In this document: positions 8,506-63,140 of the stretch, piece by piece
Layout of the letters: each line of letters begins with the position of its first letter
Numbering within the stretch: the stretch's first letter is position 1
Source of the DNA: Polaromonas sp. A23
GTDB lineage: Bacteria > Pseudomonadota > Gammaproteobacteria > Burkholderiales > Burkholderiaceae_C
Assembly: GCF_002001015.1 (NCBI RefSeq)
Contig: NZ_MUNO01000045.1
Coordinates: 124,001-188,000 of the forward strand
DNA length: 64,000 bases
Direction: 5' to 3'
The notes under the pieces: model-generated
The model's input: the letters and a program-made list of their open reading frames with translations, nothing else
What the model was told of the DNA's origin: nothing
The model's database searches: none
Program-made: the position numbers and the translations under genes

Positions 8506-8514
8506 TCATCAATT

Positions 8515-45639: not shown

Positions 45640-45641
45640 GC

Positions 45642-46652
45642 TCAGTTCCTCCGCGTGGCGCCCGAACTGACACCATCGGTGCGCTCGATGCGCACCACCT
45701 GCGCCTTGTCGCCGCCCAGTCGCAGTTCGGCAGCGCCGAACAGCCGGTCCACCACGTAGTACGGCGAGCGGAAGCGGTAGTTCACCAGCTGCCCATCCCC
45801 TCGCGCGCCAATCACGAACAAGGGCGGCAACTCGCCCTGCGCGATGCCGCCGGGGAACTGGATGTAGACGCGTTCGCCGTCGTCGAAGGCGCGCAGCGGC
45901 TTCCACGGCGGGCTGTCGCCGCTGACGGCATAGCGGAACCTGATCTGCTCCAGCGTCATCCCAGTTTCCACCGGCGCGCTGGCCTGAGCCTGATGCGCCT
46001 GCTTCTGCAGGGCCAGCATCCGGTCCTTCGGGTAGTCCCAGGACACCGAGGCCATCCAGGCTTGTGGCGTCGAGGAGAGTTCCAGCAGGTAGGTGCGACG
46101 GTTCGTCGTCACCACCAGGTTGGTTTTCAGGCCAACGCGCGTGGGCTTCACAAGGATGTTCACGCGCAGCGTCGCACCCGTCCCGCTGGCCGTATCGCCG
46201 ACGATCCAGCGGGCGGTATCGCCGGCCGAAACCGTCACCAACTCCTCGCCCTGCTGCAAGGCGATGACGGTCACACGCCCAGGGCTGGTGTAGACCTGAT
46301 ACAGCGCGCCATCGGCGTAGGGCCAGACCTGGATGGCGTTGACATAGCCCTCGCGTGTGGGCGCGATGCGCGCCTCCGCGTTGGCCCGGGAAACGCGCAG
46401 CTTCTCGTCCACGGGTTCCGGCTCCATCTTCGCCTCAGTCGCGTTCGGCAGCGCCTTCATCTGCTCGGGCAACGGCAAGGGCTTCGGCATTTCAACCACC
46501 TCGATAGGCTTCGGTGGTTCCGACAGCGGCTGCGCGGCAACGGCAACGGGCTCGTCCAGTGAGATCGTCGGCGGCGGCTTGCCCTGCGTGGCGCAACCAG
46601 CGAGGGTCAGCAAGATCAACGGCAGTACGGATCTACGGAAATGAGTATTCAT
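45642..46652 (-). CDS. trbG: TrbG, conjugal transfer lipoprotein (VirB9-like)
   Basis: This 336-residue protein has a lipobox (LTLAGC) at the N-terminus and an acidic/Pro-rich linker. The VirB9 domain carries YQVYTSPGRVTVIALQQGE and an RFRYAVSGD segment. It forms the outer-membrane core complex with TrbI. It overlaps trbF by ATGA. Confidence 0.93.
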   Translation of the reverse strand: MNTHFRRSVLPLILLTLAGCATQGKPPPTISLDEPVAVAAQPLSEPPKPIEVVEMPKPLPLPEQMKALPNATEAKMEPEPVDEKLRVSRANAEARIAPTREGYVNAIQVWPYADGALYQVYTSPGRVTVIALQQGEELVTVSAGDTARWIVGDTASGTGATLRVNILVKPTRVGLKTNLVVTTNRRTYLLELSSTPQAWMASVSWDYPKDRMLALQKQAHQAQASAPVETGMTLEQIRFRYAVSGDSPPWKPLRAFDDGERVYIQFPGGIAQGELPPLFVIGARGDGQLVNYRFRSPYYVVDRLFGAAELRLGGDKAQVVRIERTDGVSSGATRRN

Positions 46653-47362
46653 GGCTTTGTTCCTTTCATTGCATCGGTGGCTTCTAGTTCACGGCTCCAG
46701 GACAGGCCGTTGACGTAGATGCCGAGTGGGTTCTTGCGCAGGCGCTGTTCGGTGCGCGGCGGCTGCAGCACCACGGACAACACGGCCGTCCAGCGCTCCG
46801 TTCCCGAAGGCGAGCCGTTGGCATAGCTGCGCTCGATCCAGCGCACCTGGAAAGACGTGTCGCTGGCCCGCACAACGCTCGTCACCTCCACGGCCACCGA
46901 GCTTTGCCCGATGCGCGAGAACGGATCGTTCGCTCGCGCGTAGTCGTTCAAGGTGGCGGCACCGCGGTCCGTCGTGTACTCGTAGGCTTCGAGCCAGTTC
47001 TGCCGCACCACGATTGGGTCGATCGACAGCGAGCGCACGTCGGTGACGAAGCGCGCCAGGTGGTGCGCGATCTGCGCGTCGTTCGGCTTGTAGGGCGTGG
47101 CCGCTTCGCCGACCGCGCGCACCTGGCCGGCGTTGTCCACCTCTACGACGAAGGGCGTCACGATGGACTGGGCCGAGCGCCACACGAGGCCGCCGGCCAT
47201 CAGCAGCGCGAGCGACAGGCAACCGAAGGCCATTAGCCGCCAGTTCTTGGCCTGCACGCGCGCGCTGCCGATGCGCTGGTCCCAGACCTGCGCGGCGGCC
47301 TGGTAGGGAGTGACGGGCTCGGGCGTCTCCGAGTACCGCACCTGGGGTCGTTTGAATCGCAT
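46649..47362 (-). CDS. trbF: TrbF, conjugal transfer inner-membrane protein (VirB8-like)
   Basis: The 237-residue bitopic protein has a TM helix near residues 45-62 and a VirB8/NTF2-like periplasmic domain ending with a conserved NPLGIYVNGLSWSREL segment. It nucleates T4SS assembly. It lies 9 bp downstream of trbL. Confidence 0.92.
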   Translation of the reverse strand: MRFKRPQVRYSETPEPVTPYQAAAQVWDQRIGSARVQAKNWRLMAFGCLSLALLMAGGLVWRSAQSIVTPFVVEVDNAGQVRAVGEAATPYKPNDAQIAHHLARFVTDVRSLSIDPIVVRQNWLEAYEYTTDRGAATLNDYARANDPFSRIGQSSVAVEVTSVVRASDTSFQVRWIERSYANGSPSGTERWTAVLSVVLQPPRTEQRLRKNPLGIYVNGLSWSRELEATDAMKGTKP

Positions 47363-47371
47363 CTGGATCTC

Positions 47372-48739
47372 CTAAGAATTTGAGTCGTCGCGCAAGCTCG
47401 GGCTGGCGCCGCTGCCGCCGGCATCGCCCGAACGCAATGCATGCGCGGCCGTCGTTGCTGCATGCGTGATCTGCTGTTTGCGGCGCATCTGCTTGGCCCA
47501 TGCGGGCTCGGCCGCTGGCGTTCTCGATTCGCTTGCGTCCGTCGCCTTGGCTGACGCGGGTGCAGCGGCATCGGCGACAAAGTTCCCCACGCCGTCCTTA
47601 ACCGCCTTGGCGCCGGATGCCACGCGCTGACCCACGGCGCTGGCGCCGCTGCGTGCAACGTTGGCCAGGCCGGCGCCTGCCGCGCGCATGCCGCCTGCGC
47701 CCGATGCGGCGGCTCCGGCCTGATAAGCCGATTTCGCGCCGGTGGCCATTGAACTGACAGACCGCGCAGCGGCAGCGCCCCCGCCGATGGCAGCGCGCGC
47801 AGCACCAGGTGCCATGCGTGCCCCAGCAGCCACCGCCGAACCGGCTCCCGCCACGGCCGCGCCGCCGGCAACGGCCAGACCCGCAGCACCCAGCGCAGTC
47901 CCCACCGCCGCGCCTGCGCCAAGCTGCGGCGCACCAGACACCAGTCCGGTGGCAATGCCCGGCCCAAATATGCCCAACCCCAGCATCGCCAGCGAGGCCA
48001 GCATGATGACCAGCGCATGGTCGATGGACGGCTCGGTACCCGGCGGCACCGTGAACTCGGCGAACAGGCCAGTGCCGATTCCGACGATCACAGCCAGCAC
48101 CAGCACTTTGATTCCCGAAGACACCACATTGCCAAGCACCCGCTCAGCCAAGAAGGCCGTCTTGTTCCACAGCGCGAACGGCACCAGCACGAAGCCGGCG
48201 AGCGTGGTCAGCTTGAACTCGATCAGGGTGACGAAGAGCTGCACCGCGAGCACGAAGAAGCTCACGATCAACACCAGCCAAGCCAGGAACAGCACGGTGA
48301 TGACATCAAGATTTGCGAACACCTCCGGAAAACCCGTCAGATCACTGATCTGCCGCATGATCGGCGCGCCGGCCTCCACGCCCACCCGCGCCAGCCGGCC
48401 CGGCTGCAGCAACTCGCCCTGTGTCATCGACGAACCGGACGCCACCAGTCCGAGCCCGGCGAAGGACCGGAACACGATGCCCGACAGGCTGTTGAAGTTG
48501 TTCAGGATGAAGGCGAAGGCGCCGACATACAGCACCTTCTTGATCAGCTTGCCGATCACATCGTCGCCACCACCGCCGCTGGCATTGCTCATCGCCCAGA
48601 AGAGGCCTGCCAGCGTCATGTCGATCACGACCAGTGTGGCGGTCAGAAACCCCACCTCGCCGCCCAGCAGGCCGAACCCGGAATCGATGTAGCGCGAGAA
48701 GACGTCGAGGAAGCGGTCGATGACCGACAGGTCATTCAT
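47372..48739 (-). CDS. trbL: TrbL, conjugal transfer membrane protein (VirB6-like)
   Basis: The 455-residue protein has about six membrane helices in the first 260 residues (for example VIGKLIKKVLYVGAFAFIL). A long Ala/Gly-rich cytoplasmic tail follows, typical of P-type TrbL. It forms the inner-membrane DNA channel platform. Confidence 0.92.
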   Translation of the reverse strand: MNDLSVIDRFLDVFSRYIDSGFGLLGGEVGFLTATLVVIDMTLAGLFWAMSNASGGGGDDVIGKLIKKVLYVGAFAFILNNFNSLSGIVFRSFAGLGLVASGSSMTQGELLQPGRLARVGVEAGAPIMRQISDLTGFPEVFANLDVITVLFLAWLVLIVSFFVLAVQLFVTLIEFKLTTLAGFVLVPFALWNKTAFLAERVLGNVVSSGIKVLVLAVIVGIGTGLFAEFTVPPGTEPSIDHALVIMLASLAMLGLGIFGPGIATGLVSGAPQLGAGAAVGTALGAAGLAVAGGAAVAGAGSAVAAGARMAPGAARAAIGGGAAAARSVSSMATGAKSAYQAGAAASGAGGMRAAGAGLANVARSGASAVGQRVASGAKAVKDGVGNFVADAAAPASAKATDASESRTPAAEPAWAKQMRRKQQITHAATTAAHALRSGDAGGSGASPSLRDDSNS

Positions 48740-48742
48740 CGT

Positions 48743-49024
48743 TCAGTCCTTGGCAGCTGGTGCTGACGCCGCGGGTGCCTGCGCCTGCGGTGTGTGTTTC
48801 GGCCCACCGCTGCCGAAGAAGCGCCGACGCGTGGCCTCGGCCACGGCATTGCACTGGTCGTCACCGACCTTGGCGTGGTCGGCCTTGCACTGCGCGCGCA
48901 ATTCCGTCAGGCGCTCGGGATTGGCTACCAGCGACTCGACGGACTCGATGGGCGCAGGTTTGCTGCAAGCGACCAGCAACATGGCTGCGACAGCGGCCAG
49001 GATCATGCTTAAGAGCTGTTTCAT
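48743..49024 (-). CDS. Entry-exclusion-type lipoprotein (EexN/TrbK-like)
   Basis: The 93-residue lipoprotein has signal LAAVAAMLLVAC and a short conserved Cys pair (RAQCKADHAKVGDDQC). The EexN family is placed between trbJ and trbL in these elements. Such proteins stop redundant mating with cells that already carry the element. Confidence 0.78.
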   Translation of the reverse strand: MKQLLSMILAAVAAMLLVACSKPAPIESVESLVANPERLTELRAQCKADHAKVGDDQCNAVAEATRRRFFGSGGPKHTPQAQAPAASAPAAKD

Positions 49025-49035
49025 GGTCGCTCCCC

Positions 49036-49764
49036 TCAGTTGCCGTAGAAGTTGACCGTGTAGGGCGTGTACGGGGTGCCATCGCCCTGGAAGCGCCGAC
49101 GAACTTCGTGCGCGCGCTCCTGCACCGCCACCTGCCGCGCCTGCTCCAGCGCCGCGGCTCGGTCCTGCGTGATCTGGAGCTGCTGCGCTTGCATGGCTTG
49201 GCGCGACTGCAAGGCCAGCAACTGGTTCGTCGCCTGCATTGCCTGTAAGGCACCGACGGCCGACTGGCTGCGGTTCACCAGGTCGGTCAAGGTCCGTTCG
49301 TCCGACGTGAAGTTCTGCACCGCTTGGGACTGCACCTTGGTCGCGGTGCGCAGTGCTTCGAGCGAATGGGTCCAGCGCGTGCGCGCATCGGTCGCCATCT
49401 GCGTGCCCGAGACCGCTGCCGAATACGATTCGGGATATAGCCGACGGAAATCCGTCTCCATCTGCGCGACGTTGAAGGCCAGGCCCTGTCCCTGCTGGAT
49501 CAGCTGGTTCGTCGCCGACAAGGCGGCGCGCAGCTCTCCCAGCGCGCTGAAATTCAGGCTCGTCAGATTGCGCGCCTGGTTCGTCAGCATCTGCGCCTCG
49601 TTCTGCAGCTGGCGGATCTGGTTGTTGATCTGCTCCAGCGTGCGCGCGGCCGTGAGGATGTTCTGCGAATAGTTCGAGGGATCGAAGACGATCCACTGCG
49701 CGTGTGCGGCAGGCCCAAGTGCGATCAGCGATGCCGCCGCGGCGGCGAGAAAGTGCTCTTTCAT
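49036..49764 (-). CDS. trbJ: TrbJ, conjugal transfer protein (VirB5-like)
   Basis: The 242-residue exported coiled-coil protein has a signal peptide ending at GPAAHAQ. The body is mostly helical and Gln-rich (LEQINNQIRQLQNEAQML), and it ends in YTVNFYGN. It is thought to be a pilus-tip or assembly factor. The start overlaps the trbE stop. Confidence 0.9.
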   Translation of the reverse strand: MKEHFLAAAAASLIALGPAAHAQWIVFDPSNYSQNILTAARTLEQINNQIRQLQNEAQMLTNQARNLTSLNFSALGELRAALSATNQLIQQGQGLAFNVAQMETDFRRLYPESYSAAVSGTQMATDARTRWTHSLEALRTATKVQSQAVQNFTSDERTLTDLVNRSQSAVGALQAMQATNQLLALQSRQAMQAQQLQITQDRAAALEQARQVAVQERAHEVRRRFQGDGTPYTPYTVNFYGN

Positions 49765-52199
49765 GGCGAGTTCTCCTGAGGTGATGAAGGGAAGGACGGA
49801 AACGATGGGATGAGGTCCGCAGCCCATTCCAGACCGCGATGGCGCAGCCAAGCTGCGGCGAATTCCGGAGAGTTGCCGGCACCGGACACGGCATCGATGG
49901 CTCGTTGGTCTTCCGGTGTGGACGCACCGGCGAAGGCCAGCGCTACCGACCCGAGCCCGAGGTCGAAGACGCGGTTGCCCAGCCGAGACTGGTAGTAGTA
50001 GTCCCGCTTGGGCTGTGCGGTCGCGACGATCTCGATCTGCCGGCTGTTGAGTCCAAAGCCTTCGTAGATCACCCGAATCTGCGGCTCGGTCGCCTGCGGG
50101 TTTGGCAGGAAGATGCGGCTCGCGCAGCTTTCCACGATGGCCGGGGCGATGGTCGAGTCCTTGATGTCCGCCAGGGACTGCGTAGCGAAGATCACCGAGA
50201 CGTTCTTCTTGCGCAGCGTCTTGAGCCACTGGCGGATGCGCGAGGCGAACACCGGGTCGTCCAGGAACAGCCAGGCCTCATCCAGGATCAGCAACGTGGG
50301 CGCACCATCGAAGCGCTCGTCGAAGTGGGCGAACAGGTAGCCCAGAACCGCCAGCACTGCGGCCTTGCTGTGCATCAGCTCCTCCATCTCGAAGCCCTGC
50401 ACGGAGGCAGCGCCAAGCCGATCGGCGTCGGCGTCAAGCAGCTTGCCGTGGGCACCACCGAGCACGTAGGGCTGCAGGGCCTGCCGCAATGCGTTGGACT
50501 GCAGAAGGACCGACAAGCCAGTCATGGTGCGCTGCTCGAGCGGCGCGCTGGCAAGGCTGCTCAGCGCCGACCAGACGGCGTCCTTCTCAGGTGGGCCGAC
50601 GGCGACGCCTTCCTGAAGCAAGCGCCCTTCGATCCACTCGGCCGCCCAGGCGCGATAGCCCTCCCGGTCGATACGTGCTAGCGGCTGGAACGCAATGGCG
50701 CCGTCGGTGCCGAGGTCGTAGTGCTCGCCACCGAGCCCGAGGATGGTGGCCCGCATCGAACGCCCCATGTCGAACGCGAAGATGCGCGAACCCGGGTAGC
50801 GGCGGAACTGCATCGCAAGGGTCGCGAGCAGCACCGACTTGCCCATGCCCGTCGGTCCCACGATCAGCGTGTGGCCCACGTCGCCAATGTGCGTGACCAG
50901 ACGGAACGGCGTCGCACCATCGGTGCGGGTGACGATCAATGGCGGACCATCGAGATGCGCATTGCGCTCCGGCCCCGCCCACACGGCCGAAACCGGCATC
51001 ATGTGCGCGAGGTTCAGAGTCGAGACGATGGGTTGACGGACGTTGGCGTAGGCGTGGCCCGGTACCGACGACAGCCAGGCATCGACTGCGTTCAAGGTCT
51101 CGGGTATGGTGACGAAGCCCCTGCCCTGGATGGCTCGCTCCACTGCGCGCAGCTTTTCGTCGGCCGCCGTGGCGTCGGAGTCGAGTACCGACACTGTGGC
51201 TGTGACGTAGCCGAAGGCCACTTGGTCGCCGCCCAGTTCCTGCAGCGCCGCGTCGGCGTCCGATGCCTTGTTCGATGCATCGGAGTCCACCAGCGGACTC
51301 TCCTGCTGGAAGATCGTCTCGCGCAGCAGCGCGACAATGTTCTTGCGCTTGGCAAACCACTGGCGCCGCAGGCGGCGCAACTCCTTCTCGGATTCAGCCT
51401 TGTCGAGGCAGAGGAAGCGCGTGCTCCAACGATAGGCAAAGCCCAGACGATTCAGATCGTCCAGCAAACCCGGCCAAGTCGAGGTCGGAAAGCCTCGGAC
51501 GGACAACACCCGAAGGTGCTGACTCCCCAGCATTGGCGCCAGACCGCCCACCAACGGTTGATCGGCCAGCAGCGCATCCAGGTGCATGGCGACCTCGGGC
51601 ACGGCCACCGTATGCCGGCGCGTGGATACGCAGCCGTGCAGGTAGGTCAAGGTCTGCGCGTCGTCCAGCCACGAGATCTCCGGCATTACGCCGTCGAGCA
51701 GACCGAAGAGGCGTTCGGTCTCCGACACGAAGGCTTGGAGCCGCTCGCGCCAATCCACGCCTTCGGACCGGTGGTTCTCATAAAGCATCCGGGCGGCACG
51801 GGCCGTCGATTCCTCAGGCGGCAGGTAGAGCAGCGTCAGGTGGAAGCTGCTTTCGAAGTGGCTGGCGTCCGCCGCGAAGGAGGCGCGACGCTCTTCGTCG
51901 ACCAGCCAGGACAGCGGCTCCGGAAAATCCGAATCGGGATAATCGGCCGCTTCGCGCCGCTCCGCGTCAACGAACAAGGCCCAGCCGGAGCCCAGCCGCC
52001 GCAGCGCGTTGTTTAGCCGCGCCGATATGGCGACCAGTTCGCCCTGCGTCGCGCTGTCCAAATCCGGCCCGCGGAACTGTGCCGTGCGCTGGAACGAGCC
52101 ATCCTTGTTCAGCACGACGCCCGGCGCCACTAGCCCGGCCCACGGGAGCCAGTCGGCCAGCAGCGCCGGACGATTGCGGTATTCGGTGAGGTTCAACAC
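49761..52199 (-). CDS. trbE: TrbE, conjugal transfer ATPase (VirB4-like)
   Basis: The 812-residue hexameric ATPase powers the secretion channel. Walker A is VGPTGMGKSVLLATL and Walker B is LLILDEAWLFL. The N-terminal CagE/TrbE domain is complete. The start is set at GTG 52199 (VLNLTEYRNRP), the usual N-terminus, since no ATG lies in range and GAGGT precedes it. Confidence 0.93.
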   Translation of the reverse strand: MLNLTEYRNRPALLADWLPWAGLVAPGVVLNKDGSFQRTAQFRGPDLDSATQGELVAISARLNNALRRLGSGWALFVDAERREAADYPDSDFPEPLSWLVDEERRASFAADASHFESSFHLTLLYLPPEESTARAARMLYENHRSEGVDWRERLQAFVSETERLFGLLDGVMPEISWLDDAQTLTYLHGCVSTRRHTVAVPEVAMHLDALLADQPLVGGLAPMLGSQHLRVLSVRGFPTSTWPGLLDDLNRLGFAYRWSTRFLCLDKAESEKELRRLRRQWFAKRKNIVALLRETIFQQESPLVDSDASNKASDADAALQELGGDQVAFGYVTATVSVLDSDATAADEKLRAVERAIQGRGFVTIPETLNAVDAWLSSVPGHAYANVRQPIVSTLNLAHMMPVSAVWAGPERNAHLDGPPLIVTRTDGATPFRLVTHIGDVGHTLIVGPTGMGKSVLLATLAMQFRRYPGSRIFAFDMGRSMRATILGLGGEHYDLGTDGAIAFQPLARIDREGYRAWAAEWIEGRLLQEGVAVGPPEKDAVWSALSSLASAPLEQRTMTGLSVLLQSNALRQALQPYVLGGAHGKLLDADADRLGAASVQGFEMEELMHSKAAVLAVLGYLFAHFDERFDGAPTLLILDEAWLFLDDPVFASRIRQWLKTLRKKNVSVIFATQSLADIKDSTIAPAIVESCASRIFLPNPQATEPQIRVIYEGFGLNSRQIEIVATAQPKRDYYYQSRLGNRVFDLGLGSVALAFAGASTPEDQRAIDAVSGAGNSPEFAAAWLRHRGLEWAADLIPSFPSFPSSPQENSP

Positions 52200-52206
52200 G
52201 GTGACC

Positions 52207-52479
52207 TCACACGTCCAGCAGCTGCCGGTGCTTGATGTGTCGCGCGAAGACCAGCATGAACTGCGGGTCCGAACGCGCACCCCAGACAGCCAGCGAGTGC
52301 CCAACGATCCACAACACGAGACCGGGCAGCCAGAGCTGTAGCCCTACGCCGACGGCAGCGGCTAGCGTGCCGGTGGCAATCGCCACGGTGCGTGGGGCAC
52401 CGCCCAGCAGGATCGGTTCGGTCAGCGACCGGTGCAGCGGCACCTCGAATCCGGCCAGGCTTCCGGTAGCGGTGCTCAT
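52207..52479 (-). CDS. trbD: TrbD, conjugal transfer protein (VirB3-like)
   Basis: This 90-residue protein has two membrane helices (TLAAAVGVGLQLWLPGLVLW) after the conserved FEVPLHRSLTEPILLGG start. It ends in the FARHIKHRQLLDV segment typical of TrbD. It is coupled to trbC by ATGA. Confidence 0.92.
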   Translation of the reverse strand: MSTATGSLAGFEVPLHRSLTEPILLGGAPRTVAIATGTLAAAVGVGLQLWLPGLVLWIVGHSLAVWGARSDPQFMLVFARHIKHRQLLDV

Positions 52480-52808
52480 GCCAGCACCGCCCCGCCCGTG
52501 AAGCTGAAGAAGGTCAGGAAGAAGCTGGACGCGGCGAAGGCGATCGACAGACCAAACACGATCTGGATCAGCTTGCGGAAGCCGCCACTGGTGTCGCCGA
52601 AGGCCAGCGCGAGGCCGGTGGCGATGATGACGATCACCGCGATGATGCGCGCCACCGGTCCCTGAATGGATTCGAGCACCGATTGCAGCGGCGCCTCCCA
52701 GGGCATATTGGAGCCGGCTGCATGCGCGGGTAGTGCCACGGCGAGCAACAGCGCCGCTGCAGCGACGAAGTGCAAAAGCGGTTTTACGGAACGGCGTGAA
52801 TGTGTCAT
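52476..52808 (-). CDS. trbC: TrbC, conjugal pilin (VirB2-like)
   Basis: The 110-residue pre-pilin has a long signal peptide ending at PAHA, then two hydrophobic helices joined by a short loop with GDTSGGFRK, as in P-type pilins. IncP TrbC is cyclised by the TraF protease encoded at 60055. Confidence 0.92.
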   Translation of the reverse strand: MTHSRRSVKPLLHFVAAAALLLAVALPAHAAGSNMPWEAPLQSVLESIQGPVARIIAVIVIIATGLALAFGDTSGGFRKLIQIVFGLSIAFAASSFFLTFFSFTGGAVLA

Positions 52809-53821
52809 GACGGGTCTCCTGTGATGGAAGGGTTGGACGAAGGAAGGGTCGGGAAAGAAGACAGCTCGGTATCGAGCTGATAGCCATGGCTGTCGTGGCC
52901 GATGACACGCGCGATCTCGCGCACGCGGCGCGCCCGGCCGCGGCCGGCGATGAAGACGATCACGTTGACTGCCTCGGCGATCAGGGCACGCGGCACGGTC
53001 ACGCTGACCTCCTGCACCAGTTGCTCCAGCCGCGTGAGCGCACCGTGCGCCGAGCCGGCATGCACGGTTGCAATGCCGCCGGGGTGTCCGGTGCCCCAGG
53101 CTTTGAGCAGGTCGAGTGCCTCGGAACCGCGCACCTCGCCGACGACGATGCGATCCGGACGCAGCCGCAAGGTGGCGCGTACCAGGTCGGCCATCGTGCT
53201 CACGCCCGGCTCGGTACGCATGCCCACGTGGTCGTCGGAACGGCACTGCAGCTCCACCGTGTCCTCGAGGATCAGCACACGGTCGCGCGTCTCGGCGATC
53301 TCGTCGAGCAAGGCATTGGCCAGCGTGGTTTTGCCGGTGCTGGTGCCGCCCGCCACGACGATGTTCAGGCGCTCGCGCACTGCGCGGCGCAGGAACGCCG
53401 CCTGATCCTCGGTCATCACGCCATCTGCTACGTAGTGCGCCAGCGTCATGATGCGCAGTGCCCGCTTTCGGATCGCGAACGATGGCGCGCGCACGACGGG
53501 CGGTAGGACGCCCAGGAAGCGTTCTCCGGTTTCGGGCAACTCTGCCGACAGGATCGGTGCGCCCGCATGCACCTCGGTGCGCACGTGCGCGGCCACCAGC
53601 CGGATGATTCGTTCGGCCACGGCGGGCGGCAGCGCCGCGCCGGTGGCTTCGCGGCCCGTGCCCAGGCGGTCCACCCATAGCGAGCCGTCCGGGTTCAGCA
53701 GGACTTCGACGACCTCGGGGTCCTCCAACGCTGCCGCGATCTCCGGCCCCATGGCCGTGCGCAGCATGCGGATGCGCCGCTCCAACGAGGCGTCCATGGC
53801 GTTCGGCTCAAGCAGATTCAC
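52805..53821 (-). CDS. trbB: TrbB, conjugal transfer ATPase (VirB11-like)
   Basis: The 338-residue secretion ATPase has Walker A GGTSTGKTTLANAL, an Asp box (ILEDTVELQ) and a His box (HPGGIATVHAG). The start is GTG 53821 because AGGAGG lies six bases upstream. That overlaps the CopG gene end by 14 bases. Confidence 0.93.
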   Translation of the reverse strand: MNLLEPNAMDASLERRIRMLRTAMGPEIAAALEDPEVVEVLLNPDGSLWVDRLGTGREATGAALPPAVAERIIRLVAAHVRTEVHAGAPILSAELPETGERFLGVLPPVVRAPSFAIRKRALRIMTLAHYVADGVMTEDQAAFLRRAVRERLNIVVAGGTSTGKTTLANALLDEIAETRDRVLILEDTVELQCRSDDHVGMRTEPGVSTMADLVRATLRLRPDRIVVGEVRGSEALDLLKAWGTGHPGGIATVHAGSAHGALTRLEQLVQEVSVTVPRALIAEAVNVIVFIAGRGRARRVREIARVIGHDSHGYQLDTELSSFPTLPSSNPSITGDPS

Positions 53822-54275
53822 TATGAACCTCCTGAGATTCGGTGCCTGAACCCACTTGGGCTGCTTCCGCAGGTTCGATGTCCTCATGGACCTCCCGCAC
53901 CAGGCTGCGCCCGCGCTGGATGTGGCGCGCGAGCTGTTCAATGAACTGCGTATAGCGGGCCCTGCCCTGTGCGCGCGCCGCGTCCTGCTGGCCCTCGGGC
54001 ACCGGCAGCGAGACCGTCAGGAAGTAGCGGACGTAGAGGGCTGTCGTCTCAATCAGCACGTTCTGGTCACGCTCCAGACGGTCGAACTGGCGCGAGAGCC
54101 GGTCCAGGCGCTTGGCGATGGCCGCCTCGCGCTGGTCCTCGCCGTCCGGCGAAAGGAACGAGGCCAGCGCGGCGGCGATCACGGCGGACTTCGACACGCC
54201 CTTGTGCACCGCGACCTGGTCCAGCCGTTTCGCGTGCTCTGGCTCGATGAAGATATTCAGGCGGGCGCGGGTCAT
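53808..54275 (-). CDS. CopG/ribbon-helix-helix-type protein of the tra region
   Basis: This 155-residue protein starts with an RHH fold (ARLNIFIEPEHAKRLDQVAVHKGVSK, broken by its turn) and continues into a coiled coil (RLDRLSRQFDRLERDQ) and a membrane-like segment. It is the usual gene between traG and trbB in this element family and probably autoregulates the trb genes. It is coupled to traG by ATGA. Confidence 0.85.
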   Translation of the reverse strand: MTRARLNIFIEPEHAKRLDQVAVHKGVSKSAVIAAALASFLSPDGEDQREAAIAKRLDRLSRQFDRLERDQNVLIETTALYVRYFLTVSLPVPEGQQDAARAQGRARYTQFIEQLARHIQRGRSLVREVHEDIEPAEAAQVGSGTESQEVHSESA

Positions 54276-56275
54276 AGCGCGATCCCGTCGTCAGGGTCCA
54301 GCGCGGCCAGACGCGCGGTGCGCATCAGCTGCCGGTTCACGTCCTGCGGCCGTAGCGGCGCGTCGTCTTCGTCATCGAGCACCAACAGGCCGTCGGCGTT
54401 TGGAAACGACGGTGCATCGGCGGTGACATCCAGCTCGGGCTTGAGCTGGTGTCCACCCTCGTCGGCAAGGCCGCTCGCATCTCCGGCTGATGAAGGCATC
54501 CGCGCTGCTAGCGGTGGCAGTCCGCTCCAGTCGTCAGGCCGTGCCGCAGGTCGGTCCGCGTAGACGCCCGCAGCCGGCGCGGGTGCAGGCAGGACGCGCG
54601 TGGTGAAGTTCCGGTCCTGGTAGTACCGCAGCTTCTTCGCCTTGATGGGCGGATGGCCCGAGACCATCACCACGGCATCGTCGGGCGGCAGTTGCATCAC
54701 TTCGCCCGGTGTCAGCAGCGGCCGGGCCGTTTCCTGGCGCGAGACCATCAGATGCCCGAGCCAAGGCGCGAGCCGGTGCCCCGCGTAGTTGCGCTGTGCG
54801 CGCAGCTCCGTCGCCGTTCCCAGCGCTTCGGAGATACGCTTGGCCGTGCGCTCGTCGTTCGTTGCGAACGCGATGCGCACGTGGCAGTTGTCGAGGATGG
54901 AATGGTTCTGGCCGTAGGCCTTGTCGATCTGGTTGAGGGACTGTGCGATCAGGTAGGCCCGCAGCCCGTAGCCGGCCATGAACGCCAAGGCGCTCTCGAA
55001 GAAGTCCAGCCGGCCGAGCGCCGGGAACTCGTCGAGCATCAGCAGCAGCTTGTGCTTGCGCGCGATTCCGTCCGAACCATCGAGAGATTCGGTCAGCCGC
55101 CGGCCGACCTGGTTAAGGATCAGGCGGATCAGCGGCTTGGTACGGCTGATGTCCGATGGCGGCACGACCAGGTAGAGCGACACGGGGTGCGCGGCCGAGA
55201 TCAGGTCCGCGATCCGCCAGTCACAGCGCGAGGTGACTTCGGCCACCGTGGGGTCACGATACAGGCCCAGGAAGCTCATTGCGGTGGACAGCACACCCGA
55301 GCGCTCGTTGTCGCTTTTGTTGAGCACTTCGCGTGCAGCCGAAGCGACGACGGGATGGACCCCTTCGCCAAGATGCCCGGTAGTCATCATCCGGTGCAGC
55401 GTTACCTCAAACGGGCACGCCGGATCGGACAGAAAGTTGGCTACGCCGCGCAACGTCTTGTCTACGCCGGCATACAGCACGTGCAGGATGGCACCCACCA
55501 GCAGGGCATGGCTGGTCTTCTCCCAGTGGTTGCGCCGCTCAAGCGCACCTTCGGGATCGACCAGGATGTCGGCGATGTTCTGCACGTCGCGCACCTCGTG
55601 CATGCCGCGCCGCACTTCGAGCAGTGGGTTGTATGCGGCCGACTTCATGTCGGTCGGGTTGAACAGCAGGCAATGAGAGAAGCGCGAGCGCCAGCCTGCG
55701 GTGAGGTTCCAGTTCTCGCCCTTAATGTCGTGAATGACAACCGATCCCGACCAGGACAGCAGCGTCGGTATCACCAGGCCCACGCCCTTGCCGGAGCGCG
55801 TCGGGGCAAATGCCATCACGTGCTCCGGACCTTCGTGGCGCAGGTAGTCGGCGTTCTTGTGCGCTGTCCTTCCAAGGAACACGCCTGCCGGTCGCGTCAG
55901 TCCAGCTTCAGCGATCTCCTCTCGCTCGGCCCATCGAGCGGAACCGTAGGTCGTGACCTGCTTGGCCAACCGTGAACGCCAGACGGCCATGCCGATGGCC
56001 GCACCGGTGGCCAGCATTCCACTCGACGCGGCAATGATCCCACCGCGCTCGAATATTTTTGGTGCGTACGCATCGAAGAAGTACCACCACTCGAAGAGCT
56101 TCCACGGCTCGTAGACCGGCATGCCAGAGATGGCGAACCAAGGTTGCCCGAGCCGGGCTTGATGGCCAAGCGCATGCGCCGTCCACTGCGTACCCGCCCA
56201 GACGCCGCCGAGGGTCACACCCAGCACTACAACAATTTGTCCAAACAAAATCCCTGTCGCACCCCGGGTCGGCAT
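54272..56275 (-). CDS. traG: TraG, type IV coupling protein (VirD4-like)
   Basis: This 667-residue inner-membrane ATPase links the relaxosome to the channel. It has two N-terminal TM helices, Walker A APTRSGKGVGLVIP and Walker B LLLMLDEFPALG. The C-terminal tail is acidic (LDDEDDAPLRPQD). The start at 56275 gives the usual N-terminus (MPTRGATGILFG) after AAGGAG. Confidence 0.94.
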   Translation of the reverse strand: MPTRGATGILFGQIVVVLGVTLGGVWAGTQWTAHALGHQARLGQPWFAISGMPVYEPWKLFEWWYFFDAYAPKIFERGGIIAASSGMLATGAAIGMAVWRSRLAKQVTTYGSARWAEREEIAEAGLTRPAGVFLGRTAHKNADYLRHEGPEHVMAFAPTRSGKGVGLVIPTLLSWSGSVVIHDIKGENWNLTAGWRSRFSHCLLFNPTDMKSAAYNPLLEVRRGMHEVRDVQNIADILVDPEGALERRNHWEKTSHALLVGAILHVLYAGVDKTLRGVANFLSDPACPFEVTLHRMMTTGHLGEGVHPVVASAAREVLNKSDNERSGVLSTAMSFLGLYRDPTVAEVTSRCDWRIADLISAAHPVSLYLVVPPSDISRTKPLIRLILNQVGRRLTESLDGSDGIARKHKLLLMLDEFPALGRLDFFESALAFMAGYGLRAYLIAQSLNQIDKAYGQNHSILDNCHVRIAFATNDERTAKRISEALGTATELRAQRNYAGHRLAPWLGHLMVSRQETARPLLTPGEVMQLPPDDAVVMVSGHPPIKAKKLRYYQDRNFTTRVLPAPAPAAGVYADRPAARPDDWSGLPPLAARMPSSAGDASGLADEGGHQLKPELDVTADAPSFPNADGLLVLDDEDDAPLRPQDVNRQLMRTARLAALDPDDGIAL

Positions 56276-56550
56276 ACACCACTTCTCCTTCGCGTCTTGA
56301 TTCCAGTGCGCGCGTGCCGCAACGGCACCGCATGCCCGAGTCTGGAACCGAGTCGCCCCAACGCCCACCCACCTGGGCGTGATGGAGCGTGGTGAGGAGT
56401 ACGTCGGCGGAAATCGTGGCTTCGGACCAGATGGATGCAGGCTTCATGCGCGCAGACTCATCGGCGGGCCATCAGCATCGCGAGCTGTGCGCGGTGTGTC
56501 CAAGGCCGATCACGCCGCGCCACGAGTTGCGGGCGCGACACGCGTAACGA
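56276..56550. other. Intergenic region between tra lysR and traG
   Basis: This 275-bp GC-rich stretch has no convincing gene. A small perfect inverted repeat, gtgccg-caa-cggcac, lies at 56314-56328, just before traG on the minus strand. It could be an operator or an mRNA hairpin; nothing else is seen. Confidence 0.5.
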
Positions 56551-57438
56551 TTACTTCAAATCTTTTGCATGCGCAACGAAACGTTGCAAAGCCGGGCGCA
56601 AGCCGAAGCGCTGGTGCTTGTGCAAAACAAAGGTGGTGATGCGTTCGTCCTCATGCAGCGGCACAGCCACCACGTCATTGCGGCGCAGGGCCTTGACGTG
56701 GCCGGCATCCGCGAGGCCCACTCCCATGTGCGCAGCAATGCGCGTGACGTAGCCGGCGAGCGTACAGGCTTCACCAGACAACGTCGGCGTCGATGTGTAT
56801 CGGTGGACGATGACCTGCATCTGTCTCAAAAGGCCAGGCTGTCGCTCCGCATGGCATGACAGCAACGGGAAGGCCAGCACGTCGGCAATGGGTAGCGCGG
56901 ACTGCCCTGCGAGCTCGTGCCCAATAGGCAGCAGCGCCATCACCGGGTAGCTCCATGCAGGTTGCTGCGCAATGGCCTCATCATCAGGCAGGCCAAACGA
57001 GAAGCCCGCGTCGAGCTCCTCACGCTGCAGTGCATCCGCTAACTCCGAAGCGCGCATCTCAGTAAGTTCCAGCGGGATCTCCGGAGCGACCTCGCGCCAA
57101 CGGACCATGCACTCAGATAGTTTGGGCTGGGCGATTCCGTCGGCAACGCCAATGCGCAGCGGCGCTCGAAAGCGCGCGTCGGTTTCACGCACGGCACGAT
57201 AAGTGCGTTCGATGCGGATGAAGATCTTGCGTGCGTCCTGAAGCAGGCGCAGGCCGGCCGGCGTCAGGTGCAGCTTGCGGGGAGCGCGCACGAACAGCTG
57301 CACGCCCAATTGGTCTTCCAGATCGCGAACGGTGCGCGACAGCGGCGTTTGGTCAATGTGCACCCGCTCAGCGGCACGGCGGAAGTTGAGGTCCTCGGCA
57401 ACGGCAATGAAATAGCGCAGGTGTCGCAGTTCAATCAT
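56551..57438 (-). CDS. LysR-family regulator of the transfer region
   Basis: The 295-residue protein has a LysR HTH at the start (MIELRHLRYFIAVAED, then a typical RRAAERVHIDQTPLSRT) and a substrate-binding domain. LysR genes occupy this place between the relaxase and traG in related ICEs. The ATG overlaps the stop of a 34-residue leader ORF, so its translation may depend on the leader. The effector is unknown. Confidence 0.9.
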   Translation of the reverse strand: MIELRHLRYFIAVAEDLNFRRAAERVHIDQTPLSRTVRDLEDQLGVQLFVRAPRKLHLTPAGLRLLQDARKIFIRIERTYRAVRETDARFRAPLRIGVADGIAQPKLSECMVRWREVAPEIPLELTEMRASELADALQREELDAGFSFGLPDDEAIAQQPAWSYPVMALLPIGHELAGQSALPIADVLAFPLLSCHAERQPGLLRQMQVIVHRYTSTPTLSGEACTLAGYVTRIAAHMGVGLADAGHVKALRRNDVVAVPLHEDERITTFVLHKHQRFGLRPALQRFVAHAKDLK

Positions 57439-57539
57439 TGTCGCCTCGCCGCGTAACTGTTGGGCAGTGCGCGTCGGGGCAGGAGGCAAGGGCAATAAGA
57501 GAAGACAGGGTGCGTGACAGCGGACTCGAGACGGATCAT
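57435..57539 (-). CDS. 34-residue leader ORF coupled to tra lysR
   Basis: The ORF starts at ATG 57539 with AAGGAG eight bases upstream, far better than the lysR start itself, which has none. It ends TGA inside the lysR ATG (ATGA overlap). The peptide (MIRLESAVTHPVF...) has a Cys-Pro-Cys motif and several Arg and Pro residues. It may be a coupling or attenuator peptide. No family was recognised. Confidence 0.5.
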   Translation of the reverse strand: MIRLESAVTHPVFSYCPCLLPRRALPNSYAARRQ

Positions 57540-57732: not shown

Positions 57733-59682
57733 TCAGATGCCCATGCCTCGTTGGCGCCCAAGCTGCCACGTGACCGCTTGGCCGCGGATGGCGCCCGAAA
57801 TCTGCTGCCCGAGACGTTGCTCAATAACGGGCCGCCATGGCACGAGGCTAAAGCCCATGCCGTCATCCAGCATGGCGAAGCGACCGCTGACGAGTTGGAT
57901 GCTCCGGCGGTAGACGCCGCTGGTGTACTGGCCTTCCTGCACCGGGCGGTAGGTCTGCCCGGTCTGATCCTGGATGGCCTTGCCGGCTGTAGTCAGTTCC
58001 ATGTCGCGCAGGGTTGTCAGCAGATTGCGTGCGAGCACAACGCGCTGGCGGCGCTGCTCGGCCAAACCTCTTTCGACCAGGAAATCGACACGGTCGCGCA
58101 TTGCGTCGCGCACTTGCGCCCCAAAGCCTTGGCCGGCCAAGGCCGAACCGTCGCCCACCAACTGCTTGTCCAGCCAAGTGGCGCCGATGGCGCGCACCTG
58201 CTGATCGATGGACAGATGCGATCGCAACTCGATCGCGAATCCGGGGGCCTTCTGGACATCATGCTGCCTGGCCTTCTGCAGCAGGTCCAGCGGCACCTTC
58301 CAGACGCCATCGGTGATGCGCTCCACGATGCCGGCGCGGCGCAGCGCTTCGAGTCGGCGCACGTTCACATCGGCAGTGGATTGCGGGTCGCGGTCGTTAT
58401 CCTGCTTCAGTTGCGACACGTGATCGGCGGTCTTGTAGAAGCCGTCTCGCGCGACGTTTGCGATGTGGCGGTCCACCGGCTTCTGCTGGCCCGGTGGCCT
58501 CGCCTCCACGATGCCGTGCATGGGCAGTTCTGCGAGGTCGGTACCGGCTGGCAGCTTCAGATAGTGAGCCCGTCCGTCGATGCCATCGACCACCAGGTAG
58601 CCGCGGTCGTGCAGTTCGTCGGCCAGCCCCTTGCCTGCGATCCGGCCGATGACGGGGGCAGTCTGCCGCTCATCGACCACGCATTCCCGCCGCAGACCCT
58701 TGAGCGCACGGCGCACGGTTTCAAGCGCGTCTTCGCGCTGGCCCATGTTGTCCAGTGTGGCCGCCATCCCGGGCTGGAGCTTCCAGCGGTTCGCATCCAT
58801 CCTCTCGGCCAGGCCCATGCCTTCGAGGTGCTGCAGCCGTGCCCGCAGCGCGTTCTGACGCTGGCGGTCTTGCGAGTTGCCCGTCAGGTCGATGCCATCG
58901 GCACCAGCTTGCCGAACCAGCGCACGGTCCAGGCTGGTAAGCCGCTGCTGGTCGACCTCCCGCAGCAGGCTCTGAGAGATTTCCGCCTCGGTGCGCGGCC
59001 CCAGCCATTCGGTGGCGATTTCACTGGCGCGTAAGCGCATGCCGTGGGCCATGTAGTCTGGGGCGATCACAAGATCTTCCCTGCCACTAGCGGGCCCGCC
59101 CGTATGGCCGTTCAGCACGATGTGCGTGTGCGGATTGTCTGTGTCCCAATGGTCCACGGCCACCCAGTCCAGTCGCGTCTCCAGGTCGATCTCCATGCGG
59201 CGCATCAGTTGGCGGGTGAAACCCTTCAGATCTTCCAGCTCCAGGCCGTCCTCGGCCGAGACGATGAAGCGGAACTGGTGGCGGTCATTCAAACCGCGTT
59301 CCTGAAAGGCCTTGAGATCGGCCGCGTCGGTGTCGGCGCCGTAAGCCTGGCCCTTCTGCCCATCGCGCGTGACGCCGTCGCGCTCGATGTAACGCAGGTG
59401 CACGGCAACCGAGTTTGGGCTGGCGCGCCGTAGCACGACGAAGCGGGACTTGATGACCACACGCCGCGCGTTCGGCCCCAGGCGCTGGCCGGCCATGGAG
59501 GCCGCGACGCGGCCTCGGCCGAACGTATTGGCGGGTCTGCCAAGGGCCTTGCGTGAGGGATTTGCGCCGGTCTTCGACACCTGCTTGAGAACCTGCGAAA
59601 CGAAGCGCTGCGAGCGCGGCCCGCCACGCGACTTCGGCGCCGCGGGTTTGACGCGAAAGCGGTCCTCGTCATTGCCAGCCAC
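57733..59682 (-). CDS. DUF3363-family relaxase (RlxS-like)
   Basis: This 649-residue relaxase/virD2-like protein nicks oriT. The three-His region is seen as DNPHTHIVLNG in the N-terminal third, with HQFRFIVSAEDG upstream, and the C-terminal half is the DUF3363 domain. The start is GTG 59682 with GGAG five bases before it; the frame is open upstream but runs into the hairpin-rich non-coding region. It follows traF and precedes lysR in the usual order. Confidence 0.9.
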   Translation of the reverse strand: MAGNDEDRFRVKPAAPKSRGGPRSQRFVSQVLKQVSKTGANPSRKALGRPANTFGRGRVAASMAGQRLGPNARRVVIKSRFVVLRRASPNSVAVHLRYIERDGVTRDGQKGQAYGADTDAADLKAFQERGLNDRHQFRFIVSAEDGLELEDLKGFTRQLMRRMEIDLETRLDWVAVDHWDTDNPHTHIVLNGHTGGPASGREDLVIAPDYMAHGMRLRASEIATEWLGPRTEAEISQSLLREVDQQRLTSLDRALVRQAGADGIDLTGNSQDRQRQNALRARLQHLEGMGLAERMDANRWKLQPGMAATLDNMGQREDALETVRRALKGLRRECVVDERQTAPVIGRIAGKGLADELHDRGYLVVDGIDGRAHYLKLPAGTDLAELPMHGIVEARPPGQQKPVDRHIANVARDGFYKTADHVSQLKQDNDRDPQSTADVNVRRLEALRRAGIVERITDGVWKVPLDLLQKARQHDVQKAPGFAIELRSHLSIDQQVRAIGATWLDKQLVGDGSALAGQGFGAQVRDAMRDRVDFLVERGLAEQRRQRVVLARNLLTTLRDMELTTAGKAIQDQTGQTYRPVQEGQYTSGVYRRSIQLVSGRFAMLDDGMGFSLVPWRPVIEQRLGQQISGAIRGQAVTWQLGRQRGMGI

Positions 59683-59904
59683 GAAGACTCCAGCGCACAG
59701 TGGCGCAGCGCATCGAAAGCGGCACGTGGCAGACGCCGCTGCTATGCGGATTCCAGCCTCTGCGCGGCACGCGCAAGACCCCTTGCGGTGCCGCCGCAAA
59801 CCCACGTGCAGACTGGCTTGGAGGGGCGCGACGTGCCACCCCCTTTATCTGGCCCTCCGTCTCCGCCTTCTGCTCCCGCTCCCGGCTCCGACTTGCCGCC
59901 AGCC

Positions 59905-60588: not shown

Positions 60589-61100
60589 CTCAACGCTCCC
60601 CGCGCAAGATGTGCCGCATGCCGCTCGGTGGTGTAGTCCGGCGGCGGCTGGCGTGCTGCCAGCCGGTTGCCGACCGTGCGCCAGTATGTGACGGCCACTA
60701 CGGCCGGATCGATGCCCAGCGCCTCGATGGCATCGATCACATCGAGCACCGCCTTGACATGCTGCTCGCCATCGGCGCGCAACAGGATGCGCGCGCCGGG
60801 CGCTACGCCCGCGATGCGTTGCGCGCCATCGAACGGCATCGGTGCCTCCAGCACCATGAGCTGCCAGAGCGCCGTGCCGTAGTCATTGCCGATCCACTTC
60901 ACGCGGCAACAGACTGCGTTGGGTTCGAATGTCGCCACGCGCCGCCAGCGGTCCACCACCGTCTCGCGCACCGGCCGTCCGAAGCGCAGCCAGAGGTTCA
61001 CCCGATGCTCGACGAAGGCGAGCGAGACCCGCATATGGACAGGCCGCGGCACCACGGCCTGGGGCCAGGCCTGCCCAGTGAAGGGAAGCAACTGCGTCAT
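60585..61100 (-). CDS. DUF2840-family protein
   Basis: The 171-residue protein carries the conserved segments VNLWLRFGRPVRETVVDRWR and FEPNAVCCRVKWIGNDYGT. It is regularly placed between parA genes and traF in this ICE family. Its function is unknown. It is coupled by ATGA at both ends. Confidence 0.85.
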   Translation of the reverse strand: MTQLLPFTGQAWPQAVVPRPVHMRVSLAFVEHRVNLWLRFGRPVRETVVDRWRRVATFEPNAVCCRVKWIGNDYGTALWQLMVLEAPMPFDGAQRIAGVAPGARILLRADGEQHVKAVLDVIDAIEALGIDPAVVAVTYWRTVGNRLAARQPPPDYTTERHAAHLARGALR

Positions 61101-61360
61101 GGTTGACCTCCGCCGTACTCGCGTTCCAACAACTCGCGCAGCATCTCGGCTGCGGTGATGCCGCGTTTGAACGCGATCACCTTGATGCGGCCCCGTAGCG
61201 CCGGCGTCACGTCGATGGTCAGGCGGGCGGTGTAGATCGACGCCGTGGCGGCAACTTCTGGTGCGTCGGCCTGCCGTACCCATGTTGAGGCCGGATCGGC
61301 GGCCGGCTTGCGACCGATTGGTGCCCGCTTCGGCGCTGCAGATGACGCTGAAACCGTCAT
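61097..61360 (-). CDS. Ribbon-helix-helix partner of ParA
   Basis: The 87-residue basic protein has a disordered N-terminus and a C-terminal RHH fold (ARLTIDVTPALRGRIKVIAF...ITAAEMLRELLEREYG). It follows parA with an ATGA overlap, the arrangement of small centromere-binding proteins such as ParG. It probably binds DNA in element partitioning or autoregulation. Confidence 0.75.
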   Translation of the reverse strand: MTVSASSAAPKRAPIGRKPAADPASTWVRQADAPEVAATASIYTARLTIDVTPALRGRIKVIAFKRGITAAEMLRELLEREYGGGQP

Positions 61361-62115
61361 CGCAAAATCTCCTGCACTGCTTGCGTCAGCGCCGCGATCT
61401 CGCGCGCGGCGGCACACTTAGGCGAGGCTTCGCATGCAAGCCGGCCTGCGGCCACGCTGTCGGCGAACACGATGCGCTGCGAGACTTCGGCGTGCAGCGC
61501 GGCGAACGGTTGATCGGCCAGCGCTGCGCGCGCTTCGCGGCCGATCACGGTGCCGACCACGCGCCGGTTGATCACGAAGGCCGCGCGAAGCTGCGGCCTG
61601 AATACGCGGGCCTCGGCAATGAGCGTCACCATCTCGTGGCTCGCCCACACGTCGTAGGCGCTGGGCTGCACGGGGATCAGCACCAGGTCGGCGGCCAGCA
61701 GCGCGGAGCGCGCAAGGGCCGCGACCCGCGGCGGGCCGTCGATCACGACGTAGTCCGCCTCCAAGGCGATCTGCGGCGCTTCCTGGTGCAGCGAGTCCCT
61801 AGCCAGCCCGAACACGCCGTAGAGCCGTCCCCGTCCGTTCTGAAGCCGACGTTGCGCCCAGTCGAGCGCAGAGCCCTGCGGATCGGCGTCGAGCAGCGTG
61901 ACGCGGCTTCCAGTCATCGCCAGCTCGCCGGCCAGGTGCGTGGCGAGCGTGGTCTTGCCGGCGCCGCCTTTCTGGTTGAGTAGCGCGATCACCTTGCCAG
62001 GCTGGTCTTGTCTTCCTGATAAGCGGTTTTCGGCTGTTTGGGCTCTTCGGAATGCCTCCGGCATGGCATTGCCCGCTTTTTGAGCAGCCTCTATTCGCGC
62101 GCGCGTGAATTCCAT
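61357..62115 (-). CDS. parA: ParA-family partition ATPase
   Basis: The 252-residue protein carries the deviant Walker A LNQKGGAGKTTLATH, the A' segment DADPQGSALDW and Walker B VVIDGPP. It keeps the excised or replicating element stable. ATG 62115 is chosen because AAAGGGA precedes it; this adds 40 residues before the usual family start, which would be GTG 61992 (VIALLNQKGG). Confidence 0.9.
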   Translation of the reverse strand: MEFTRARIEAAQKAGNAMPEAFRRAQTAENRLSGRQDQPGKVIALLNQKGGAGKTTLATHLAGELAMTGSRVTLLDADPQGSALDWAQRRLQNGRGRLYGVFGLARDSLHQEAPQIALEADYVVIDGPPRVAALARSALLAADLVLIPVQPSAYDVWASHEMVTLIAEARVFRPQLRAAFVINRRVVGTVIGREARAALADQPFAALHAEVSQRIVFADSVAAGRLACEASPKCAAAREIAALTQAVQEILR

Positions 62116-62135
62116 TTATGTATCCCTTTAGATGT

Positions 62136-63140
62136 TTAGGGAGGCCCGAAACCGTTGCTGGGTGCGGCTTTCCGGCCGATCGGTGCGGGCGATCCACCGA
62201 TACTTCTGCGGGCGATCCACCGAGGGTCGTGCGGGCGATCTACCGAGTTCATCCCCACGCCACCCACAGGTTCTTCAGCAGAGGCTGTGGATAAGTCACT
62301 CTGGGAGGTTTCGGCTTGGCCGGGCCGAAAGGCCAGCCATTCGATGCCGCCGCTGCGTTCCAGGGACAGCTGGTAGCCGGGCAACGCCTGCCGCAGCGCG
62401 AGCTGGCGCACCTGCAGCGCGAAATCGGATGGGCGCTGCAGGCTCCCGGACTTCAAATGCAGGTGGCGCATCTCGAAACGCCAGCCCGCGGGCTGCCGGC
62501 CGCCGTGCTTGCGCACCAGCCGGTACAGCCAGCGCTCGATGCCACCTGAAAGCCGGAAATACGTGGGATCGAGCGTGAGCACCAGTGCCTCGTCCATCAC
62601 GCCGGTGAAGAACCAATCGGCCAGGATCAACTCGATGCCGTCGGAGCGACCATCGGGCCGGATGTATTCCTTCCACTCGTTGATCCAGGAGAAGCGGTGC
62701 ACCCGCTTGCCGCCGTTCGGGCGCTCGCGCTGGCGCAGCGTCGTGGCGACGGTGGTGGACTGCAGCCGGTCCAGCGCTGCGCGCAGCGCCAGGTAGTCGC
62801 TGCGACCGGTACCCCGCTGCGCGAAGCGCAGGATCTCGTAGGGCGTGGCCACCATCAGACGCGAAGGCGCGATGCCTTTTTTCTTCGCCTGGATGATCTG
62901 GCTGGCAGCCCAGATCAGAACGTCGGCATCCCAGATCGTGGCGATGCCGTGCTCGGGCACACCCTCGACGGTGAGCGTGATGCCACCGGCCTCGAAGCGG
63001 ATCGGGACGATGCGCGGCGACTTCGCCAGGGAGAAGAAGGGGTAGGCCATCAGGTCCTGCGCATCGCGCAGCGCCATGTCGCCGTGCGGCAGCGCGCGGA
63101 ACAGCGTGAGCTGTTCGCGTTCACTGTGGCGCTTCGACAT
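62136..63140 (-). CDS. repA: RepA-like replication initiator
   Basis: This 334-residue replication initiator protein A family member contains conserved parts QLTLFRALPHGDMALRDAQD, YPFFSLAKSPR and LSGGIERWLYRLVRKHGG. It probably starts replication of the excised element. The last 40 residues are poorly conserved and are encoded by DNA that holds three iterons and a DnaA box. Confidence 0.9.
   Translation of the reverse strand: MSKRHSEREQLTLFRALPHGDMALRDAQDLMAYPFFSLAKSPRIVPIRFEAGGITLTVEGVPEHGIATIWDADVLIWAASQIIQAKKKGIAPSRLMVATPYEILRFAQRGTGRSDYLALRAALDRLQSTTVATTLRQRERPNGGKRVHRFSWINEWKEYIRPDGRSDGIELILADWFFTGVMDEALVLTLDPTYFRLSGGIERWLYRLVRKHGGRQPAGWRFEMRHLHLKSGSLQRPSDFALQVRQLALRQALPGYQLSLERSGGIEWLAFRPGQAETSQSDLSTASAEEPVGGVGMNSVDRPHDPRWIARRSIGGSPAPIGRKAAPSNGFGPP
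62185..62246. repeat. Three iterons within the repA 3' end (candidate oriV)
   Basis: Three copies of the 16-mer gcgggcgatcYaccga start at 62185, 62208 and 62231, an exact 23-bp period. Only one base differs among them. Because 23 is not a multiple of three, the copies are read in different frames of repA, so the repeats cannot be explained by the protein sequence. Confidence 0.75.
62286..62294 (-). promoter_or_regulatory. Consensus DnaA box
   Basis: The minus strand reads TTATCCACA, a perfect DnaA box, 39 bp from the iteron block. Together with the iterons it suggests a theta-type replication origin inside repA. Confidence 0.65.

Follow-up and report, generated by a model that had tools for sequence, protein, structure and literature searches.

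The minus strand of the window, by which we mean the whole 64-kb stretch of DNA analysed here, carries at 62136-63140 a repA gene encoding a replication initiator, whose match to the Pfam RPA family (PF10134, residues 25-258; E=1.6e-78) reaches 263.9 bits against a curated cut-off of 27 and whose TAA stop codon lies at 62136-62138. It is followed by parA for a partition ATPase (61357-62115, minus strand; NCBIfam NF041546 ParA_partition, 257 bits vs a cut-off of 180), a gene for a small ribbon-helix-helix (RHH) protein in the position of parB (61097-61417, minus strand; PF23807, E=2e-5, below cut-off), a DUF2840 gene, a TraF peptidase gene, an RlxS-type relaxase gene (57733-59805, minus strand; PF11843, E=9e-124; NF041267, E=1e-187, below the curated cut-off) and a conjugation block (44353-57495, minus strand) consisting of a LysR regulator gene in the place of traR, traG and trbB/E/L/F/G/I. 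This rep-par-tra-trb order, with a LysR regulator ahead of traG, is that of Tn4371, and the Tn4371-family integrative and conjugative elements (ICEs) share the backbone repA, parA, parB-like gene, DUF2840, traF, relaxase, traR, traG and trb (PMC2789088). On the plus strand, just inside the left end, lies the gene of a tyrosine integrase with an arm-binding domain (8638-10227; PF00589 and PF13356), next to the left att site (8514-8563), whose 50 bp match the 3' end of tRNA-Asp(gtc) exactly; the second att copy is that tRNA 3' end itself (contig positions 207320-207369). Integrase and att sites thus bear out the first-pass annotation, made from the sequence alone, in taking the host element for an ICE, here about 74.9 kb long and inserted in tRNA-Asp. 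Tn4371 itself uses an 8-bp attB (PMC2789088), in contrast to the tRNA-Asp target, 50-bp att repeat and arm-domain integrase found here, and no Tn4371-type integrase was found to the right of repA, the contig's sole PF00589 integrase being the one at the left end. Because its integration module differs from that of Tn4371, we call the element Tn4371-like rather than a member of the family.

Cargo genes were seen in two places. CusB-like (with a CusF domain) and CusA-like RND efflux genes lie beside trbI (38735-43584, plus strand) as metal-efflux cargo. Close to tRNA-Asp at the right end of the ICE, a Multiubiquitin-prokaryotic E2 fusion (PF14452, PF14462; L137 16217-18549, contig C33 about 203716-206048) adjoins a ThiF/JAB protein (PF00899, PF14464), forming a bacterial ubiquitin-like conjugation operon that looks like defence cargo; a pair made up of an AAA ATPase and an S8 subtilase lies close by (L137 7873-11264).

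Three direct repeats (iterons) and a perfect DnaA box are contained in the repA reading frame. In repA sense, the iterons read TCGGTAGATCGCCCGCA (62230-62246), TCGGTGGATCGCCCGCA (62207-62223) and again TCGGTGGATCGCCCGCA (62184-62200); they are copies of a 17-bp unit, TCGGTRGATCGCCCGCA, one of them with one mismatch, and successive copies start exactly 23 bp apart. Three repeats at a 23-bp period had been noted before, and count and period hold, but the unit is 17 bp long and not 16. As had also been proposed, the period shifts the frame each time: the first bases of the copies fall in codon phases 0, 2 and 1, so that every frame is used. Tandem Repeats Finder scored the array at 86, against 49 for the runner-up in the window, and 16 of the 17 columns are invariant across the three copies; dinucleotide shuffling of the 420-bp region, done 100 times, gave no more than 8 of 17. 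Searches allowing up to two mismatches found no further copy in the rest of the 64-kb window. The array has the form looked for in an origin beside repA, namely at least three regular direct repeats of about 17-22 bp. The perfect DnaA box, TTATCCACA (62286-62294, minus strand), lies 40 bp from the array and is the only perfect copy in 64 kb, in agreement with its earlier placement in the repA coding sequence. An alignment of close relatives points to a second, inverted DnaA-like box, which reads CCATCCACA in these relatives and is degenerate and weak in the window itself (CCACCCACA, 62260-62268, plus strand, three mismatches).

Beyond iteron 3 follow a GC-rich 44-bp spacer of constant length (62140-62183, minus strand) and an AT-rich block of 26 bp (62114-62139, minus strand; 27% GC), a putative DNA unwinding element that the first-pass annotation had missed. 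The block holds the repA stop codon and abuts the start of parA, and the candidate origin, ordered DnaA box, three iterons, spacer and AT-rich block, thus reaches past the end of repA. Only 0.15% of 26-bp windows are equally AT-rich. Its distance from the array is fixed: in 59 relatives, the 30-bp GC minimum begins a median of 45 bp past iteron 3 (interquartile range 43-47). At the corresponding place, relatives and plasmids carry TAAC-type repeats, with a mean of 2.6 TAAC motifs per 160 bp in the relatives vs 0.11 in the background. DnaA boxes are enriched family-wide as well: in the 59 relatives, the 75 bp just upstream of the array have perfect boxes at 10 of 3,953 positions, the background at 0 of 138,597. 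A spacer hairpin (GGCCG-AAA...TTT-CGGCC), plausible by eye, was rejected: the mean fold z-score was -0.48 (window, -0.91), just 15% of sequences fell below -1.5 and the consensus fold of a MAFFT alignment contained zero pairs.

A genome scan confirmed at least 586 relatives of the window's RepA, the best 80 of which form, together with the window, a close set of 81 loci. Arrays were detected with free spacing, as a fixed-period detector missed classical members, in which the first spacing is 24 and not 23. In this set of best 80 plus window, three iterons follow directly after the RPA domain in 81 of 81 loci, spaced 23/23 in 14 and 24/23 in 67, and the window's overall layout recurs there after repA. 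The array was also present in 102 of 103 wider loci with RepA identity of at least 45% and available downstream sequence; these numbers, like those for the 81, count loci and not independent lineages, because both sets contain near-copies. One relative with 59% identity (L103) is without a recognisable array, and in some distant RPA relatives the array is absent from the stretch examined. The iteron sequence varies between elements (GTGCTATCAGGCGTG, ...GGAGTAC, ...GGCAACA, GGTGGATCACCGGCG, GGGAATCACCCGCA), and the copies of one element have changed in concert, their mean identity being 0.903 within elements vs 0.697 (maximum 0.753) over 2,000 shuffles of the copies across elements; the columns flanking the 17-bp unit do not share this behaviour. 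A locus in the same genus (L116; G348 C11) has kept array, AT-rich block and parA with no repA upstream, and may be a decayed replicon or be served by RepA in trans.

No sequence relatives of RepA were found in the PDB. An AlphaFold model (mae38d79034e4; 31-row alignment, mean pLDDT 73.6) has a pLDDT of about 90 across most of residues 40-270 and predicts two winged helices, followed from residue 277 by a disordered tail (pLDDT <50). Foldseek matched the model to domains 2-3 of RctB, the initiator of Vibrio cholerae chromosome 2 (E=1e-11), and to mini-F RepE54 with its cognate DNA (E=8.5e-5), whereas comparison with a viral fold library gave no significant match. RctB and RepE are iteron-binding initiators; RepA is therefore predicted to fold like initiators of this kind, and the gene adjacent to the repeats appears to encode a winged-helix Rep, as at an oriV. 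In the lineage in which repA runs through the array, divergence at codon positions 1/2/3 is.08/.06/.30 for the RPA domain and.30/.29/.23 and.18/.19/.21 for the tail. Judged by these codon patterns, the RPA domain is under purifying selection and the tail above the origin is free of protein-level constraint. Together with the concerted change of the iteron copies, this supports the earlier view that selection acts here on the DNA.

We interpret 62114-62294 (minus strand) as the putative vegetative replication origin (oriV) of an RPA-family theta replicon on a Tn4371-like ICE, a reading to which we give a probability of about 0.86. In the mechanism we infer, the three 17-bp iterons would be the binding sites of RepA, an initiator with two winged helices, while host DnaA would occupy the adjacent box, and both would jointly open the AT-rich block beside parA. 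The host helicase would then be loaded and the excised circle copied theta-wise as a low-copy plasmid, which ParA and the small RHH protein may segregate. This suggests that plasmid-like replication is also open to a mobile element regarded as chromosomal. Several features count against an oriV: the iterons number just three, the second DnaA-like box is degenerate in the window, the AT-rich TAAC repeats have shrunk in the window's lineage to TAAAC...TAAAG, and the array is missing at L103 and from the stretch examined in some distant RPA relatives.

The shrunken AT-rich block would also fit a decayed or purely regulatory remnant, in which RepA on the array regulates itself or parA and the ICE replicates solely by rolling circle from relaxase and oriT, like SXT and ICEBs1. 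Array-only remnants do occur, as at L116, and relaxase-driven replication is documented in several ICEs (PMC4489591). However, only 26% of differing codons in the RPA domain are nonsynonymous, vs 74% in the tail, so that the initiator itself appears to be maintained by purifying selection, and the retention of both DnaA box and AT-rich block goes beyond the needs of regulation alone. In a relative, ICEKKS102Tn4677, moreover, attP had risen 130-fold from time zero after traR was induced, and attB 40-fold (PMC11448139), which hints weakly that the circle replicates. Altogether, we hold a remnant to be improbable.

The position of the array directly upstream of parA, with an RHH protein encoded after parA, could instead indicate a type Ib partition system, the repeats being the centromere (parS/parC) or operator of ParA and the RHH protein and not sites for RepA. 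Type Ib centromeres consist of short direct repeats, and iterated sites lie upstream of parA; the array beside parA but without repA at L116 would be in line with this. The free plasmids of the RPA family argue otherwise. On six of them (L121, L122, L125, L127, L132, L133), repeats of 21-23 bp in about four copies follow repA, in most cases with a DnaA box immediately ahead, and TCGGGGTATCACCCACC, the L122 iteron, visibly resembles the window's. Downstream of repA, the iterons are succeeded by a TAAC-rich AT block, also in the absence of a following parA: in these six, parA lies upstream or was not found in the stretch, and array and AT block still follow repA, as they also remain with repA in L129, which has no detectable parA. 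The array is thus linked to repA rather than to parA, and since array and AT block stay with repA when no parA lies downstream, the origin is set apart from the partition site. Furthermore, type Ib centromeres do not include DnaA boxes, and a 17-bp unit with 22-24 bp spacing fits winged-helix initiators, which makes a partition site a distinctly improbable explanation. A selected protein repeat in the RepA tail, as the place of the array within an open frame might suggest, is refuted by the frame and codon-position results: the copies lie in three frames, and the tail lacks codon-position bias, is predicted to be disordered and is missing in most relatives, including the same-genus locus L112. 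The earlier attribution of the array to RepA, as part of a plasmid-like oriV, stands on the 81 close loci, the RPA plasmids and the DnaA box and AT-block statistics. On one of the plasmids, pKira_2 (L121 2001-2836), the RepA reading is split in two by a stop near 2504, although the origin is intact; the interruption may be genuine, a frameshift or an error of assembly.

The first-pass annotation had also placed the origin within its own initiator gene, and the relatives do not support this as a design feature. In 69 of the 81 close loci (best 80 plus window), the repA stop precedes the array, which then occupies the repA-parA gap, and the frame runs through it in only 12. In a tree built from 59 RepA proteins, the inside or outside state changed at least five times, four of the changes being forced by well-supported branches, and the window's nearest neighbour by path, L112 from the same genus, has the array outside repA. 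There (L112/L117; G331 C9 about 122441-123606), the 3' end of repA has naturally been duplicated in tandem, so that RepA ends at residue 283 and box, iterons and AT-rich DNA persist, intact, outside the gene. The array lies in the window's repA frame because repA of this lineage is without the stop that closes repA of most relatives earlier; the GC-rich DNA would keep the frame open as far as the TAA-rich AT block, whose first TAA is the repA stop of the window. Given the number of changes and the outside array of L112, the embedding is labile and in all likelihood incidental. Stop-codon loss, and not design, can accordingly bring an origin to lie "inside a gene", and can do so repeatedly. Arrays embedded in the repA frame were also seen in separate lineages (L120 2833-2896; L100, L101, L085-L087); in L120, L100 and L085 the frame runs beyond the AT block as well, and on L120, a Ketogulonicigenium plasmid, repA overlaps the start of parA by 4 bp.

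Among known systems, the closest comparison is with the RPA-family (PF10134) plasmid replicons (pVS1 group, pUT1/pPDL2, Sphingomonadaceae and Burkholderiales plasmids), which have the initiator family in common with the window. Beside repA they, too, have iterons (21-23 bp), accompanied by a DnaA box and by an AT block rich in TAAC, but are free plasmids and not ICEs, and where an array was recognised in the plasmids examined here it mostly lies after the repA stop, with the exceptions of L120 and L130, which are probably ICEs on plasmids. For pPDL2/pUT1, the oriV was described upstream of repA, and a working mini-replicon has been obtained from pPDL2, an integrating element, with a RepA of the RPA/Rep-3 type, a DnaA box, iterons and AT-rich DNA (PMC3516476). 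pVS1 had already been linked to the RepA of Tn4371 (PMC2789088). Tn4371-family ICEs have the array with the spacing seen in the window, within the repA-parA gap; unlike them, the window's repA runs through the array. The element order of the window is also that of the RK2 (IncP) oriV, in which DnaA boxes, iterons and AT-rich 13-mers with the consensus TAAACnTTnTTTT follow one another (PMC4081077), and mini-F RepE matches RepA in predicted structure. The RK2 and F origins differ in belonging to another initiator sequence family, in having more iterons and DnaA boxes, and in lying outside the initiator gene. In phage lambda, ori is located inside the O gene. An origin overlapping the initiator coding sequence, as in the window, is known from repABC plasmids, whose oriV in repC requires an AT-rich region and has no iterons and no DnaA boxes (PMC3155836). 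Compared with repC and lambda, the overlap in the window is a lineage-specific extension of the frame across a usually separate origin. As for other integrative elements, the excised form of SXT/R391 replicates via relaxase and oriT (PMC4489591), and replication of SGI1 is reported to depend on an IncC helper (PMC7826253); in the sources consulted, neither is described with an iteron origin of an RPA RepA.

Iteron oriVs, origins within initiator genes (repC, PMC3155836) and replicating ICEs (PMC4489591) are already known. For Tn4371-type ICEs, we found no description of this origin in the open-access papers searched, none of which names Tn4371 together with iterons, and an earlier description elsewhere is possible. 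Iterons, oriV and DnaA go unmentioned in the main survey of Tn4371, and self-replication of the excised elements has stayed a "maybe" since repA was noted (PMC2789088). The locus is of above-average interest because this vague notion, that repA may replicate the ICE, becomes a testable 180-bp candidate origin: kept in every one of the close loci (best 80 plus window), it makes replication after excision directly accessible to a mini-replicon assay. Tn4371-type ICEs are widespread, to judge from the RepA relatives confirmed, and carry catabolic and resistance genes. More tentatively, and with the odds in our view somewhat against it, the family as a whole might consist of integrating theta plasmids with a complete RepA/oriV/ParA replicon, in which the concerted turnover of iterons would mark RepA-oriV specificity (incompatibility) types that decide on coexistence and on whether the circle is kept once the ICE has excised or entered a new host. 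The iteron types of Tn4371-type ICEs provide material for an incompatibility test. Several Tn4371-like repA-oriV modules were observed in one genome in Acidovorax facilis DSM 649 (L003, L005, L059) and Delftia tsuruhatensis (L022, L039), and some of these co-resident modules differ in iteron type, which makes them possible candidates for such a test. Among phylum-wide genomes, G187, G196 and G039 each contain two or three RPA repA loci.
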